Both the position numbers and the translations under genes were made by a program. The notes under the pieces are model-generated. The model worked only from the letters and a program-made list of their open reading frames with translations, searched no databases and was not told the DNA's origin. Shown here one piece after another: positions 47,940 through 54,684 of a stretch of 54,684 nt of DNA. The DNA is from Thermodesulfovibrionia bacterium (GTDB lineage Bacteria; Nitrospirota; Thermodesulfovibrionia; JACRGW01), in the NCBI GenBank assembly GCA_919902995.1, contig CAKKSD010000034.1, positions 1 through 54,684 of the forward strand, written 5' to 3'. Each line of letters starts with the position of its first letter. Within the stretch, counting starts at the first letter, position 1.

Positions 47940-49685
47940 ATGAAACTCCTTACCACTTATAAGGGTATTCTCTTGACCCTTACCATATTCATTCTTTCTT
48001 CAATATGTAATCTGCCAGATAGTTCAGCATCAAAACAGAGGCTTAATGTGACTTGGAAACCGGATGCAGGCCCTCCTGTAAAGATTGGGGTATCATCAAT
48101 GATTACACCTGTAGATACCGTAAAGTACTATCAGGAGATAATCGATTATATTGGAGAGAGGATAGGCCGTCCGGTTCAGATGATTCACAGAAGGACATAC
48201 AAAGAGATGGATTCGTTACTTAAGAACGGTGATGTCAAGGTCGCATTTGTCTGTTCACTTTCTTATATTAAAGATCAGGAAGAATTCGGGGCTAAACTAC
48301 TTGTTGCCCCGGTTGTGAATGGCAGGACAACATATCACTCTTATATAATTGTCCATAAGGATGACTCCATAAATTCTTTCGCTCAGCTGAAAGGAAAGGT
48401 CTTTTCATTTACAGACCAAAGGTCAAACTCAGGGAGATTATATCCTGTGTATCTTTTAAAGACAATGGGAACAACACCAGAGAAGTTTTTTAATAGGTAC
48501 ATCTACAGTTACAGCCACAATAAGTCTGTTGAACTTGTTGCCAAGAAGGTTGTTGATGGTGCAAGTGTTGACAGCCTTGTTTATGAATATATGTTAAAAA
48601 ATAACTCTCCCTATGCAAAACAGACGAGGATTATTAAGCGTTCACCCCCCTTCGGGATACCGCCTGTAATAGTAACAAGAGATATAAATCCTGAACTTAG
48701 AAATAAAATAAGGGATGCCTTTTTAAATATAAATAATGATCCAAAGGGCAGGGCAATTCTTGATGCTATGATGATAGATGGATTTGTTACTATAAATACT
48801 AAAGATTACGACTCTATAAGGGTGATGGAAAGGTCAATTAAGGATACTGTAGTATCAGTAAAGAGAGAAAAAGGAAAACAGACCTTATATATTGGTGTGA
48901 TACCGAGGGATAATCCACGGATACTTTATGAAAAGTATCAGCCTCTTGTTGATTACCTCTCTGAAAGAACTCCTTACTCCTATGAACTTGCCCTGAAGAA
49001 AAATTATGAAGAGACTGTGAACGCTTTCGGTAAAGGGGAAATAGATATTGCCCTGCTCGGACCATTAACTTATCTCGAAGCTCATAAAAGATATGGTGCT
49101 GTCACTATCCTGAAGCCAAAAGGAATAGATAACAACGCAACCTATAAGAGTGTAGTGATCAAGAGGAAGGACTCCCCATTTAAAAAGGCTTCAGAACTTA
49201 AGGGAAGGGCTGTTGCCTTTTCAGCCTCCAAGTCAACATCAGGAAATCTTATGCCAAGGTATCTCCTGGCGAATTCAGGGATACATCTAAGTGAACTCAG
49301 AAACTATACAAATTTCGATTATCACGACTCTGTTGTTAAGGCTGTCCTTAAGGGACAGTATGACGCGGGAGCTGTGAGGGATTCTGTGGCGAGAAAATAC
49401 ATGAAACTCGGGATTGAGATAATAGCTGAATCTATGCCTATACCTACGGGCCCTATAGTTGTGAGACCTGATATGCAGCTTTCTGTGAAAGAAGACATTA
49501 AGAAGGCGCTTCTCGAATTAGACCCCAGTAACACACGATACCAGACGATACTTAATAAACTTGATGATGATTATAAAAATGGTTTTACAGAAACCTCAGA
49601 TAATGATTATGAAGATATAAGGGTAAAGATTAATGCAGTACCAAAAACATGTGGGAAGGGATGTCATCCGAAGATAAGGTTATAA
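47940..49685 (+). CDS. Dual-domain PhnD-type periplasmic binding protein
   Basis: Signal peptide; two PhnD-like modules (PPVKIGVSSMITP...AFVCSLSYI...SNSGRLYP and LYIGVIPRDNP...IALLGPLTYLEA...STSGNLMPRYLL); C-terminal CGKGCHPKI. Confidence 0.88.
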   Translation: MKLLTTYKGILLTLTIFILSSICNLPDSSASKQRLNVTWKPDAGPPVKIGVSSMITPVDTVKYYQEIIDYIGERIGRPVQMIHRRTYKEMDSLLKNGDVKVAFVCSLSYIKDQEEFGAKLLVAPVVNGRTTYHSYIIVHKDDSINSFAQLKGKVFSFTDQRSNSGRLYPVYLLKTMGTTPEKFFNRYIYSYSHNKSVELVAKKVVDGASVDSLVYEYMLKNNSPYAKQTRIIKRSPPFGIPPVIVTRDINPELRNKIRDAFLNINNDPKGRAILDAMMIDGFVTINTKDYDSIRVMERSIKDTVVSVKREKGKQTLYIGVIPRDNPRILYEKYQPLVDYLSERTPYSYELALKKNYEETVNAFGKGEIDIALLGPLTYLEAHKRYGAVTILKPKGIDNNATYKSVVIKRKDSPFKKASELKGRAVAFSASKSTSGNLMPRYLLANSGIHLSELRNYTNFDYHDSVVKAVLKGQYDAGAVRDSVARKYMKLGIEIIAESMPIPTGPIVVRPDMQLSVKEDIKKALLELDPSNTRYQTILNKLDDDYKNGFTETSDNDYEDIRVKINAVPKTCGKGCHPKIRL

Positions 49686-51130
49686 AAAAAGGCTTAGGCC
49701 TTCAGTATAAGTTCATATTAATTACAACATTTGCGATTATCCTTCAGATGGGCATTATAGGTTATATAACCGTTGAGAGAGAAAAAGGCATACTGTATAA
49801 GGAGGTAGAAAGACATGGAAGATTACTCGGAGAGACCCTTGCCATACCTATAATAAATGACCTGATATACGAAAGGGTTGGACTTATCGAAGAAGGTGGC
49901 CTTCTTGATAACTATGTTATGGAGATATTCAACAAACGGGATGTGGATCTGGTCTATATCGCAATCCTCAATGAGGAAGGTAAAGTGATATCACATAATA
50001 ACATTAAGGAGTATGGAAAAATCTACTCTGACATATTAACAAAAAGGTCATTTGAGTCTGATAATATCGTAATCCAGCGTATCACATATAATAGAAGACC
50101 AGCAATAGATTTCGGCGTTCCACTTTCCATAGGTAAGAAGAGGTGGGGGACGCTGAAGTTTGGAATCTCCATTGAAAAAATGGAAATAGAGATTATTGCT
50201 ATGGTTAAAAAGATTGTGATCCTTACCCTATTTTTTATCGCTATAGGGTTTTCAATCATACTTTTATTGAGCAGAAGGTTTATAAGCCCCATTACATACC
50301 TTGCAAATATTATGGAAAAGACAGGTGGGGATTATCTTAATATCAGGGCTGATGTAAAGGGTTATGACGAGCTTGCCATACTTGGTGAAAAATTTAACAG
50401 TATGATAGAAAGAATAAGGCAGGCTAACGAAGAGCTTAAAAAGACTCATGAGAAGATGGTCCAGTCAGAAAAGCTGGCTTCTATAGGTATCCTTGCTTCT
50501 GGTGTTGCCCATGAAATAAACAATCCTCTCGGTGGGATTTTCAACTGTCTCCAGATGTTGAAACAGAGCAGTAGCAATCCTAACTTAAAGGAAAAATATC
50601 TTAACCTTATAAAGGAAGGACTTGAGAGGATAGAAAGTACGGTAAACAAACTATTATGGATGTCAAGGAAAGACGAACATAAGCCTGTTAATCTAAATTT
50701 AAAATATTCTATAAATGAGATTTATTCCTTTATTGATTATAGAATTAAGAAAAATATGATTAAATTTTTAGCAGAGATTGAAGATAATCTTGTTATGTTA
50801 GTTGATCCCCACGATTTTCAGCAAATGATGCTGAACATTTTCATCAATTCTATTCAATCAATGCCTAGAGGTGGTAACCTGATAGTAAAGGGGTATAAAG
50901 AAAATTCCAAGATAATGTTAGAAATAATAGATACAGGTGAAGGGATTACAGGTGAGAACATAGACAAGATATTTGATCCTTTCTTCACAACAAAGCCCCC
51001 TGGAGAGGGTACAGGACTTGGACTCTGGATGACCTACGAAATTATAAAAAATTATAATGGTGAGATTTCGGTAGAAAGTGAGGTAGGGAAAGGGAGTAGA
51101 TTTATTTTGAGCTTCCCTCTTTCAGGATAA
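49661..51130 (+). CDS. Membrane sensor histidine kinase (extracytoplasmic sensor, HAMP, HisKA, HATPase)
   Basis: Two TM segments, SGVAHEINNPLGGIFNCLQML H box, EIIDTGEGITGENIDKIFDPFFTTKPPGEGTGLGLWMTYEI. ATG at 49661 overlaps the SBP stop. Confidence 0.92.
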   Translation: MSSEDKVIKKGLGLQYKFILITTFAIILQMGIIGYITVEREKGILYKEVERHGRLLGETLAIPIINDLIYERVGLIEEGGLLDNYVMEIFNKRDVDLVYIAILNEEGKVISHNNIKEYGKIYSDILTKRSFESDNIVIQRITYNRRPAIDFGVPLSIGKKRWGTLKFGISIEKMEIEIIAMVKKIVILTLFFIAIGFSIILLLSRRFISPITYLANIMEKTGGDYLNIRADVKGYDELAILGEKFNSMIERIRQANEELKKTHEKMVQSEKLASIGILASGVAHEINNPLGGIFNCLQMLKQSSSNPNLKEKYLNLIKEGLERIESTVNKLLWMSRKDEHKPVNLNLKYSINEIYSFIDYRIKKNMIKFLAEIEDNLVMLVDPHDFQQMMLNIFINSIQSMPRGGNLIVKGYKENSKIMLEIIDTGEGITGENIDKIFDPFFTTKPPGEGTGLGLWMTYEIIKNYNGEISVESEVGKGSRFILSFPLSG

Positions 51131-51165: not shown

Positions 51166-52509
51166 ATGAAAGAACCTATTCTTTTGATTGAAGATGAAAA
51201 ACTTATGAGAGTTACCCTTGAGGATGCCCTTAAGTCCTCAGGTTATGATGTTATCTCCTTCGAAAATGGCAGAGATGCGATAGATGCATTAAGGGAGAGC
51301 TACTTCAGTATAGTTGTGACAGATGTGAGACTTCCTGATGTAGATGGTCTCGATATACTTAAAAATATTATTGAGAACAAAAAGGATACACAGGTGATTC
51401 TGATGACCGCCTTTGGAAGTATAAAGGATGCAGTTGAGGCAATGAAACTCGGCGCCTTTGATTACATAACGAAACCGTTTTCATTAGATGAATTTCTTCT
51501 TCTAATAAAGAGGGCCCTGGATGTAAAAAGCCTCAAAGATGAAAATATCAGACTTAAAAAAGACATCGTCAAATACTACTCTCTCCCGAATATAATTTGT
51601 GAAAGCACAGAAATGAAAAATGTTTTCTCATTGGTAGAAAAGGTTTCTGAATCGGATTCGACTGTTCTTATACTTGGTGAAAGTGGAACTGGTAAGGAAC
51701 TCATAGCAACGACAATCCACTACCAGGGTAAAAGGAAGGATAAACCCTTGATTAAGGTTAACTGTTCGGCACTACCGGAAGGTCTTATAGAGAGTGAGTT
51801 ATTCGGGCATGAAAAGGGTGCCTTTACTGGTGCGATAAAGAGAAAACCGGGTAGGTTTGAACTTGCCGATGGTGGTACAATCTTCCTCGATGAGGTAGGA
51901 GATTTTCCCCTTTCTACTCAGGCAAAGCTACTAAGGGTAATACAGGAAAGGAGGTTCGAAAGGGTTGGAGGGACAGATACATTGAGTGTAGACGTAAGAA
52001 TAATTGCTGCAACAAATAAAAACCTTGAGGAAGAGGTTAAAAAGGGAAGGTTCAGAGAGGATCTCTATTACCGCCTTAACGTAATACCTATAACACTTCC
52101 TCCATTAAGAGAGAGGAAAGAGGAAATTCCCTATCTTATTGATTTCTTTTTAAATAAATATAGAGATAAACTATTTAAAAATACACATTTTTCAAAAGAA
52201 GCGGTAAGTACACTCCTTAATTATGACTATCCAGGAAATATCAGGGAACTTGAAAATATTGTGGAAAGATGTGTAACCCTTTCTATCTCAGATGTGATCA
52301 AGAAAGATGACCTTCCCTCCTTTATATTTAAAAAAACAGATGATAAAAAACAAGGTTCACTTTCTTATATAGCAGCGGAGGCAGAAAAAGATCATATCAT
52401 CAGGGTTTTAAGGATCACAAAGGGAAACAGAACAAAGGCTTCCGAGATGCTCGGAATAAGCAGAAAGACACTCTGGGAGAAGATAAATTCCTATGGGATT
52501 GATTTATAA
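51166..52509 (+). CDS. NtrC-type sigma-54-dependent response regulator
   Basis: Receiver VVTDVRLPDVDGL; AAA+ GESGTGKELIA, GAFTGA motif; FIS-type HTH GNRTKASEMLGISRKTLWEKI. Confidence 0.95.
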   Translation: MKEPILLIEDEKLMRVTLEDALKSSGYDVISFENGRDAIDALRESYFSIVVTDVRLPDVDGLDILKNIIENKKDTQVILMTAFGSIKDAVEAMKLGAFDYITKPFSLDEFLLLIKRALDVKSLKDENIRLKKDIVKYYSLPNIICESTEMKNVFSLVEKVSESDSTVLILGESGTGKELIATTIHYQGKRKDKPLIKVNCSALPEGLIESELFGHEKGAFTGAIKRKPGRFELADGGTIFLDEVGDFPLSTQAKLLRVIQERRFERVGGTDTLSVDVRIIAATNKNLEEEVKKGRFREDLYYRLNVIPITLPPLRERKEEIPYLIDFFLNKYRDKLFKNTHFSKEAVSTLLNYDYPGNIRELENIVERCVTLSISDVIKKDDLPSFIFKKTDDKKQGSLSYIAAEAEKDHIIRVLRITKGNRTKASEMLGISRKTLWEKINSYGIDL

Positions 52510-52522
52510 AGAGTTAAAGTCT

Positions 52523-52538
52523 GTTACTTAATTGTAAC
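52523..52538. promoter_or_regulatory. Candidate activator binding palindrome GTTAC-N6-GTAAC
   Basis: TGTTACTTAATTGTAACA, about 130 bp upstream of the sigma-54 promoter. Confidence 0.4.
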
Positions 52539-52670
52539 AATACTTATTGATTAAAAAATGATTTTTTATTCTTAAAAAATAAAGGCTTATCCTATCACCA
52601 TCCTTCTTTCTGTTTCTTTTCCGTAACACCTACAATTACCAAGAACCTTTAAAATTAAATAACTTACTAA

Positions 52671-52686
52671 TGGTATAAAAATTGCT
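52671..52686 (+). promoter_or_regulatory. Putative sigma-54 (RpoN) promoter
   Basis: TGGTATAAAAATTGCT: -24 GG and -12 GC separated by exactly 10 nt; matches TGGYAYR-N4-TTGCW. Confidence 0.75.
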
Positions 52687-52837
52687 GTTATTATCTGGTA
52701 TAGATCATTTTATGATTAGATACCTAAAGCCTAGTTAATTTTTATATGGGAGGGGGTGATTTTAAGGGGAATAATGAATTTTCTGTAAGATGTGTTTAAT
52801 AGTTTGGGTAAATCAAGACTGTTTAGGAGGTGTAAAG

Positions 52838-54684
52838 ATGAAGATTAAAAGAAGGGATTTTTTAAAGGCAGGTGTAGCCACAGGTGCAGCAGTTGCACTA
52901 AGTGGTGGACTTACACTCAATGCCTTTGCCAATGGCAAAGACCAAAAAACAGGAGGTGGCGGGACAGAGCCAGGCAAATGGATACCTTCCACATGTCAGG
53001 GCTGCACGCAATGGTGCCCTGCTGAGTTTTTTGTACAGAATGGAAGGGCTGTAAAGGTAAGGGGCAACCAGCTGTCCAAAGTAAATAACGGTTATGTATG
53101 TCCGAGGGGACATATGATGCTTCAGGAACTTTATGACCCTGACAGGGTAAAGGTTCCAATGAAGAGGACGAATCCCAAGAAGGGCAGAGACATTGACCCG
53201 AAATTTGTTCCTATCACTTGGGATGAGGCATTAAATACAATTGCCGATAAACTGGTGGAGCTCAGAAAGAATAATGAACCTCATAAGTTCTTATTTATCA
53301 GGGGGAGGTATTCACCTAAGACATATCCTCTTGCTTATGGCACATTGCCTAAAATAATAGGTTCTCCAAATGCTATATCTCATAGCGCAATCTGTGCAGA
53401 GGCAGAGAAATTCGGACCCTTTTACACAGAGGGTTTCTGGGGATACAGGGATTATGACCTTGCAAGAACAAAATGTCTGGTGGCTTGGGGATGCGACCCC
53501 TTAAGCTCAAACAGAAATGTCCCAAATACCATCAACAAGATCGGTGATGTTATTGACAATGGCAAAGTTATAACTGTTGACCCCAGACTGAGCGCAATAG
53601 CTGCTAAGTCTCACGAATGGGTGCCTATAAAACCGGGTGAAGACGGTGCCCTTGCTGTTGCTATTGCCCATGTGATTCTTACTGAGGGAATGTGGAGTAA
53701 GGAGTTTGTAGGAGATTTCAAAGACGGTAAAAACCAGTTCAAAGCTGGAAAGCCTGTTGATGAAGCGGCATTTGCTGAAAAGCACACGCATGGCCTTATA
53801 AAGTGGTGGAATATCGAACTCAATGAAAGGACACCTCAGTGGGCAGAAAAGATCTGCGGTATCTCAAAAGGTCAGATTGTCAGAATAGCGAGAACTATGG
53901 GCAAAGCTTCGCCCAATGTTGCTGTATGGATGGGTCCCGGACCTGCTATGAGCCCAAGGGGTGCATATCCATCCTTTGCAATTCATGCATTAGCAGGACT
54001 TCTTGGCGCTTGCGAGAACGAGGGAGGTTCTTTGAGAAATCATGCCAAGTCACCTTCAGGCAAACTGCCAGAAATTGATCCTTTCCTCGATGACATTGCG
54101 AAGAAATATGGCAAAGAGAAGAAAATCGATCAGAGGGGATATAAACAGTTCCCCTCAATATCAGAGGGCAAGGCTGGAAGCTCGGTCATTACCAACAATG
54201 TAGCAACAGGCATTCTGAATGAAGATCCCTATGATATTAAAGTGGCCATCAGCTACTGGGCGAACTTCAACTTCTCCTGTACAGGAGCCGACAGATGGGA
54301 CAAGGCTATGACAAAGGTTCCTTTCTATGTTCATATAGGGACCAACCCTTCAGAAATGGCGATGTTTGCAGATATAGTGCTTCCAGCTGCGCACCATGCA
54401 ACTCAGAAGCTTTCAATAATTGATAACAAAGGCAACCTCCATACACATCTTTCGATTCAGCAACCTGTTGTCGGGAGGTTATGGGAAGAGAAGGCTGATG
54501 AGACCGAGATTATGTGGATGCTTGCCGAGAAACTTAATGCTAAGGGATTCCCTAATATGCTTAACTATTTTAAGTCATTTAAGGACCCCGAAACTGGCAA
54601 GACCCCAAACAACGCAGATGAGTTTGCACTGATTACTACAAGGATTATAAGCATGCCCGTATGGAAGCCTGAAAAGCCTCTTAA
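52838..54684 (+). CDS. Tat-exported molybdopterin oxidoreductase catalytic subunit, ArrA-like (3' end beyond window)
   Basis: RRDFLKAG Tat motif; CQGCTQWCPAEFFVQNGRAVKVRGN...YVCPRGH Fe-S motif; FIRGRYSPK; SHSAICAEAEKFGPFYTEGFWGYRDYD; AGGAGG SD. Open at the window end, so absent from the ORF track. Confidence 0.88.
   Translation, partial: MKIKRRDFLKAGVATGAAVALSGGLTLNAFANGKDQKTGGGGTEPGKWIPSTCQGCTQWCPAEFFVQNGRAVKVRGNQLSKVNNGYVCPRGHMMLQELYDPDRVKVPMKRTNPKKGRDIDPKFVPITWDEALNTIADKLVELRKNNEPHKFLFIRGRYSPKTYPLAYGTLPKIIGSPNAISHSAICAEAEKFGPFYTEGFWGYRDYDLARTKCLVAWGCDPLSSNRNVPNTINKIGDVIDNGKVITVDPRLSAIAAKSHEWVPIKPGEDGALAVAIAHVILTEGMWSKEFVGDFKDGKNQFKAGKPVDEAAFAEKHTHGLIKWWNIELNERTPQWAEKICGISKGQIVRIARTMGKASPNVAVWMGPGPAMSPRGAYPSFAIHALAGLLGACENEGGSLRNHAKSPSGKLPEIDPFLDDIAKKYGKEKKIDQRGYKQFPSISEGKAGSSVITNNVATGILNEDPYDIKVAISYWANFNFSCTGADRWDKAMTKVPFYVHIGTNPSEMAMFADIVLPAAHHATQKLSIIDNKGNLHTHLSIQQPVVGRLWEEKADETEIMWMLAEKLNAKGFPNMLNYFKSFKDPETGKTPNNADEFALITTRIISMPVWKPEKPL

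Follow-up and report, generated by a model that had tools for sequence, protein, structure and literature searches.

Which enzyme does the regulatory gene set at the end of this contig control, and to what signal does it respond? The window, by which we mean the whole analysed contig of 54,684 nucleotides, closes at its 3′ end with genes for a PhnD-type sensor, a histidine kinase, a sigma-54 response regulator and a Tat-signal molybdoenzyme, the order claimed in the initial annotation, and it terminates at position 54684 inside the last of these, arrA (Table 1). That annotation had proposed a three-component switch that senses an arsenic or antimony oxyanion and drives a respiratory reductase, a proposal supported by the RGRY motif and ArrA-clade position of the enzyme, the AioR-type palindromes upstream of its gene and the first domain of the sensor, which is nearest to ArrX. 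For these reasons an arsenic switch is the best reading, and we consider it very probable that the locus is an arsenic-type three-component switch on arrA, with ligand and function as predicted below. What is new is that the “PhnD” protein consists of two fused sensors, one of ArrX/AioX type and one cysteine-less domain with a CGxxCH tail, and that the molybdoenzyme behind the complete cassette varies among relatives (ArrA, PhsA-like, TtrA-like); this wider pattern of fused sensors, conserved operators and swapped clients is of greater interest than the single locus.

Table 1. Positions in the window of the predicted switch and the gene that it precedes.
Feature	Position	Strand	Basis or remark
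Periplasmic sensor of 581 aa with two fused domains: signal sequence, ArrX/AioX-type domain, PhnD-type domain, CGKGCH tail	47940..49685	+	two PF12974 stretches
Sensor domain 1, residues 42-298	48063..48833	+	pocket Y87, C105, Y132, S162, S164, H193, D211
Sensor domain 2, about residues 311-561	48870..49622	+	pocket as in domain 1 except Gly374 for cysteine
Sensor C-terminal CGKGCH tail, residues 571-576	49650..49667	+	CGxxCH conservation
Sensor histidine kinase	49649..51130	+	two transmembrane segments, sCache_3_2, HAMP, HisKA, HATPase
AtoC/NtrC-type response regulator	51166..52509	+	receiver, sigma-54 AAA+ with GAFTGA at residue 218, Fis-type HTH
Candidate activator palindrome 1, GTTACTTAATTGTAAC	52523..52538	.	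fits AioR consensus GTT-N10-AAC (PMC5335332)
Candidate activator palindrome 2, GTTTCTTTTCCGTAAC	52612..52627	.	89 bp after palindrome 1, start to start
Predicted sigma-54 promoter -24/-12, TGGTATAAAAATTGCT	52671..52686	+	59 bp after palindrome 2 start
arrA, catalytic subunit, 615 codons, cut by contig end	52838..54684	+	domain, homology, tree

In the proposed mechanism, these parts would make up the control section of an arsenate-respiration (arr) operon, together with its first structural gene, in a bacterium of Thermodesulfovibrionales type (Nitrospirota). The fused periplasmic sensor would bind an arsenic oxyanion, as its domain 1 suggests, and once liganded would activate the membrane kinase; the kinase, judging from its domains, would phosphorylate the sigma-54 activator, which would bind the two AioR-type palindromes and open the promoter, as the conserved arrangement of these sites suggests. 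The predicted transcript would carry arrA and, as in relatives, arrB, the gene for the TorD chaperone and cofactor genes. We infer each of these regulatory steps from the characterised AioXSR and ArrX; observed directly are the parts themselves, how they are conserved and linked, and the place of the enzyme in the ArrA tree.

The sensor gene is of PhnD type, as first annotated, but it is not a single PhnD: it encodes two PhnD-type domains, a point overlooked at the time. In an AlphaFold2 model (mean pLDDT 86.7) both PBP domains are predicted with confidence, their relative placement is uncertain (pTM 0.52), and the best PDB matches of the protein are ArrX, then AioX. Domain 1, closest to the arsenate-binding ArrX, has all seven residues listed for the AioX/ArrX pocket (PMC5908839), including the arsenic-binding cysteine, which is present in 43 of 43 fused sensors; in domain 2, glycine occupies the cysteine position in 38 of the 43, as in PhnD. 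The combination of PhnD-type PBP fold and Y-C-Y-S-S-H-D pocket that marks an arsenic sensor is thus found in domain 1 only, and the protein is a variant rather than a standard ArrX, since it has 581 residues in two domains and not a single domain of about 300. The pocket cysteine does not tell which oxyanion is bound: the ArrX of Chrysiogenes, a sensor of arsenate, has it, and AioX binds arsenite (PMC5908839).

The CGxxCH tail is found in 41 of the 43 fused sensors and in all 11 domain-2 sensors of Desulfuromonadota. Because it is kept where sensor and kinase genes share only 4 bp (L040) and in Desulfuromonadota, we rejected an explanation of the tail as a by-product of the overlap with the kinase start codon. 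The Desulfuromonadota arr loci (L196, L202, L203, L206 and others) resemble the window in that their enzymes belong to the ArrA clade and a sensor with the same tail, 44-48% identical to domain 2, lies upstream of the kinase and regulator genes. They differ in that domain-1 and domain-2 sensors are separate proteins, and in L202 and L206 the separate, cysteine-bearing domain-1 sensor is encoded between the regulator and arrA. That the proteins encoded separately there are fused here argues that both sensor types would feed one kinase. Two of the surveyed loci have a second PhnD sensor, single-domain and with its own kinase, near acr3 (L040:1-4711, where a sigma-54 regulator is also present, and L142:7209-12398); this sensor has neither the pocket cysteine nor a CGxxCH tail.

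Sequence of 3 kb or more is available downstream of 33 cassettes, and 28 of these are followed on the same strand by a molybdoenzyme of the DMSO family; 27 were recognised by script, and the remaining one is L139, where an antisense ORF masked arrA. In addition to ArrA, the clients include PhsA-like enzymes, TtrA-like enzymes and a further group, and genes for TorD, FmdE, a ModE-like protein and MoeA are common to many of the client operons. The PhsA-like enzymes have 776-840 aa and are accompanied by a c7-type cytochrome with three hemes and by an Fe-S subunit of 192 aa (L116, L118, L122, L123, L127, L147, L148, L149), and the TtrA-like enzymes behind the cassette have 1026-1082 aa (L124, L126, L128, L130, L131, L132, L133, L153). 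Exchange of clients also extends into the window's own genus. In G001 the sensor is 94-95% identical and lies at the same place in the chromosome (pnp, M16 peptidase), and the cassette is followed by the cytochrome that heads the PhsA-like operon in relatives, where the contig ends, before the enzyme; the window genome holds no orthologue of the PhsA-like enzyme, its best match reaching 28% identity.

As the cassette precedes other molybdoenzymes in relatives, the sensed signal may be broader than the substrate of ArrA. In the main alternative to an arsenic switch, the sensed signal would not be an arsenic oxyanion but, for example, a sulfur oxyanion, thioarsenate, antimonate, the phosphate balance or a general demand for acceptors, and the cassette would turn on any respiratory molybdoenzyme placed after it, ArrA being only one of several clients. 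The client label needs 10 changes on the sensor tree, which implies at least 10 swaps, also within the genus at the high sensor identity just given, the PhsA-like and TtrA-like clients are similar to reductases of sulfur compounds, and the pocket residues are constant whatever the client, none of them tracking the client enzyme among the 43 fused sensors. We nevertheless regard this alternative as unlikely, given that every member has the ArrX/AioX cysteine and the full pocket in domain 1, that the operators are of AioR type, and that acr3, arsR, arsA or arsD adjoin several orthologous cassettes, with ars genes beside several that do not serve ArrA.

If the arsenic reading is kept, the other clients themselves come into question. 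According to PMC10100899, an alternative arsenate reductase belongs to the TtrA family, so arsenic chemistry is plausible for the TtrA-like clients. More tentatively, and as a possibility that we rate short of likely, the fused-sensor cassette may be a portable head of an arsenic (or arsenic/antimony) regulon, in which case the PhsA-like and TtrA-like clients in other Thermodesulfovibrionia would be respiratory oxidoreductases of arsenic type that have so far gone unrecognised, and the two domains, with the CGxxCH tail, would integrate more than one input, e.g. arsenate versus arsenite or phosphate. Because the cassette and its operators can be recognised without knowing the enzyme, molybdoenzyme families of undefined substrate would become candidates for arsenic chemistry in aquifers.

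The enzyme encoded in the window itself is an ArrA, a predicted respiratory arsenate reductase. It has a Tat signal and an N-terminal Fe4S4 domain (PF10518, PF04879) and matches the Shewanella ArrA structure with 671 bits. In a maximum-likelihood tree it falls not outside the Arr group but inside an ArrA clade with 100/99 support, together with the ArrA of Shewanella and of Geobacter sp. OR-1, an isolate that respires arsenate (PMC4319506), while the ArxA of Sulfuricella lies outside. The outgroup of this tree is thin, a single ArxA reference on a long branch, and the nesting of the window enzyme with the OR-1 ArrA is well supported. RGRY, taken in the initial annotation as typical of ArrA rather than ArxA, is at residue 155, in agreement with the published motifs, (R/K)GRY in ArrA versus XGRGWG in ArxA (PMC6549141).

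We also considered the curated cut-off of NCBIfam NF041714 (1600) as a test of ArrA membership and rejected it. The window ArrA, truncated to 615 residues, scores 761 bits, its full-length relatives 1092 and 1160, the OR-1 ArrA 1008 and ArxA 431; the cut-off is not decisive, because it excludes the ArrA of arsenate-respiring OR-1 as well, which scores below the relatives of the window enzyme.

A further alternative is that the enzyme runs in the oxidising direction, as ArxA does, or works mainly on antimonate. Arr and Arx are closely related, and the title of a reference in PMC13284237 names Shewanella ANA-3 as the origin of an identified antimonate respiratory reductase; the presence of RGRY in place of XGRGWG, the position of ArxA outside the ArrA clade and the absence of an NrfD-type arrC/arxC from the operons of relatives make this alternative quite improbable. 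In the same class, L047, L048 and L049 encode ArrA-like proteins of 898-1010 aa that carry RGRY and form a divergent clade at 43-46% identity, with a four-heme cytochrome upstream, possibly a second type of arsenate reductase. At L046:5401-7594 (G052), an internal stop splits arrA into two frames that overlap, indicating a pseudogene or an assembly error.

The switch is predicted to reach arrA through the intergenic region in front of it. The predicted sigma-54 promoter with exact GG-N10-GC spacing noted by the initial annotation, TGGTATAAAAATTGCT, is indeed in place, and the pattern TGGYRY-N5-TTGCW has this one match in the whole window, where shuffling expects 0.18. The palindrome that it reported upstream, GTTACTTAATTGTAAC, lies 132 bp 5′ of the promoter and is the only exact GTTAC-N6-GTAAC of the window; the second palindrome, GTTTCTTTTCCGTAAC, had been overlooked. 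One palindrome and a promoter, taken alone, are weak evidence. Here, both palindromes match by sequence comparison the AioR consensus GTT-N10-AAC, for which GTTCGGATTTCCGAAC has been footprinted (PMC5335332). On this sequence evidence the regulator resembles AioR/ArxR-type activators, GTT-N10-AAC being located upstream of the sigma-54 promoter of the client enzyme, and its domains are those of such activators as well: it belongs to the AtoC family and has a receiver, an AAA+ domain with the GAFTGA that had been claimed for this NtrC-type protein, and a Fis-type HTH.

Promoter and palindrome stand well above chance because the arrangement of two palindromes plus promoter recurs in relatives at fixed spacing. 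Of the 41 regions behind orthologous regulators (relatives plus window), at least one palindrome is present in 28 (dinucleotide-shuffle mean 0.24), two palindromes 82-100 bp apart in 19 (shuffle mean 0), and a palindrome followed by -24/-12 at 56-59 bp from the palindrome start in 16 (shuffle mean 0); dual palindromes also precede clients other than ArrA. In a scan of the whole class (231 genomes), palindrome plus -24/-12 was matched 47 times and the reversed control 3 times; the genome of the window, in which rpoN is present, has a single match, the window promoter. Where arrA lies several genes away from the regulator genes (G008, G057, G072), the element still lies directly 5′ of arrA. In many arrA orthologues the -12 element is TTGA and not TTGC. 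That the sites are chance matches in AT-rich DNA, with arrA transcribed by another route, is very improbable: a lone palindrome or -24/-12 in an AT-rich intergenic region would be weak and some orthologous cassettes are without the sites, but spacing and sequence are fixed across families, none of 200 shuffle sets had any dual site or site with promoter, and the class-wide matches far exceed the reversed control.

The operator pattern is not quite exclusive to this regulon, a possibility that we had considered. In one genus, palindrome and -24/-12 precede an unrelated membrane protein of 580 aa (L280:4578 in G015; also G017, G029, G033 and G163), and our fused-sensor survey reported no fused-sensor cassette in these five genomes. 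Upstream of Desulfuromonadota arrA, inspection of 400 bp showed no operator pair of the window type.

Among characterised systems, ArrXSR-ArrAB of Chrysiogenes arsenatis likewise has a PhnD-type arsenate-binding sensor, a kinase and a regulator beside arrA, and its ArrX is matched by domain 1 here with the same pocket (PMC5908839). It differs in that ArrX has one domain instead of two fused ones, in that ArrR is CitB-like without AAA+, so that the AAA+ regulator here is not of the Chrysiogenes type, and in that no promoter was detectable upstream of arrAB, in contrast to the predicted sigma-54 promoter and two operators found here (PMC5908839). AioXSR-AioBA of Rhizobium NT-26 and Agrobacterium shares the sensor, the kinase, the AtoC-type regulator, the GTT-N10-AAC operator and the sigma-54 promoter, but it controls an unrelated enzyme, the arsenite oxidase AioBA, through a single-domain sensor, and in the window the operator is doubled. 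ArxXSR-ArxA (Alkalilimnicola, Sulfuricella) also combines a sigma-54 regulator and GTAAC-type site with a PhnD sensor beside the kinase and regulator genes, and is distinguished by an ArxA with XGRGWG outside the ArrA clade and a single-domain sensor. Known ArrXSR and AioXSR thus have one sensor domain each, whereas in the window arrA is joined by a two-operator predicted sigma-54 promoter and a fused double sensor. Putative arrA akin to deltaproteobacterial arrA have been described in Nitrospirae metagenome-assembled genomes, in a paper whose consulted passages show no analysis of regulator, sensor fusion, operator or alternative clients (PMC6730927). Our locus adds, in a groundwater-type bacterium of the Nitrospirota, a predicted arsenate-breathing gene beside its own arsenic-type sensor system and promoter.

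Of the arrB/arrC and ars genes that the initial annotation suggested looking for, acr3 and an arsC-like gene are present in the window genome, but arrB is not in the assembly: neither it nor the remainder of arrA was found on the other contigs. The simplest explanation for the lack of arrB is that the contig breaks inside arrA. In L037, whose ArrA is 90% identical to that of the window, arrB follows arrA, and the operon of relatives reads arrA-arrB-torD-ferredoxin-fmdE-modE-like-moeA. The acr3 gene of the window genome (G000, contig C36) lies near a contig start beside the arsC-like gene, which is of the low-molecular-weight phosphatase type (L276:389-1904).

The leader of arrA was inspected as well. 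A search of Rfam gave no match for an RNA element in it, and a short leader peptide encoded by the conserved GGGGGTGA was considered, although inspection by eye showed differing frames among relatives. At 52750-52765 of the window the leader contains GGGAGGGGGTGA, a conserved GAAGGGGGTGA-like stretch that sits well upstream of the ribosome-binding site and is also present in the arrA leaders of L037-L042.
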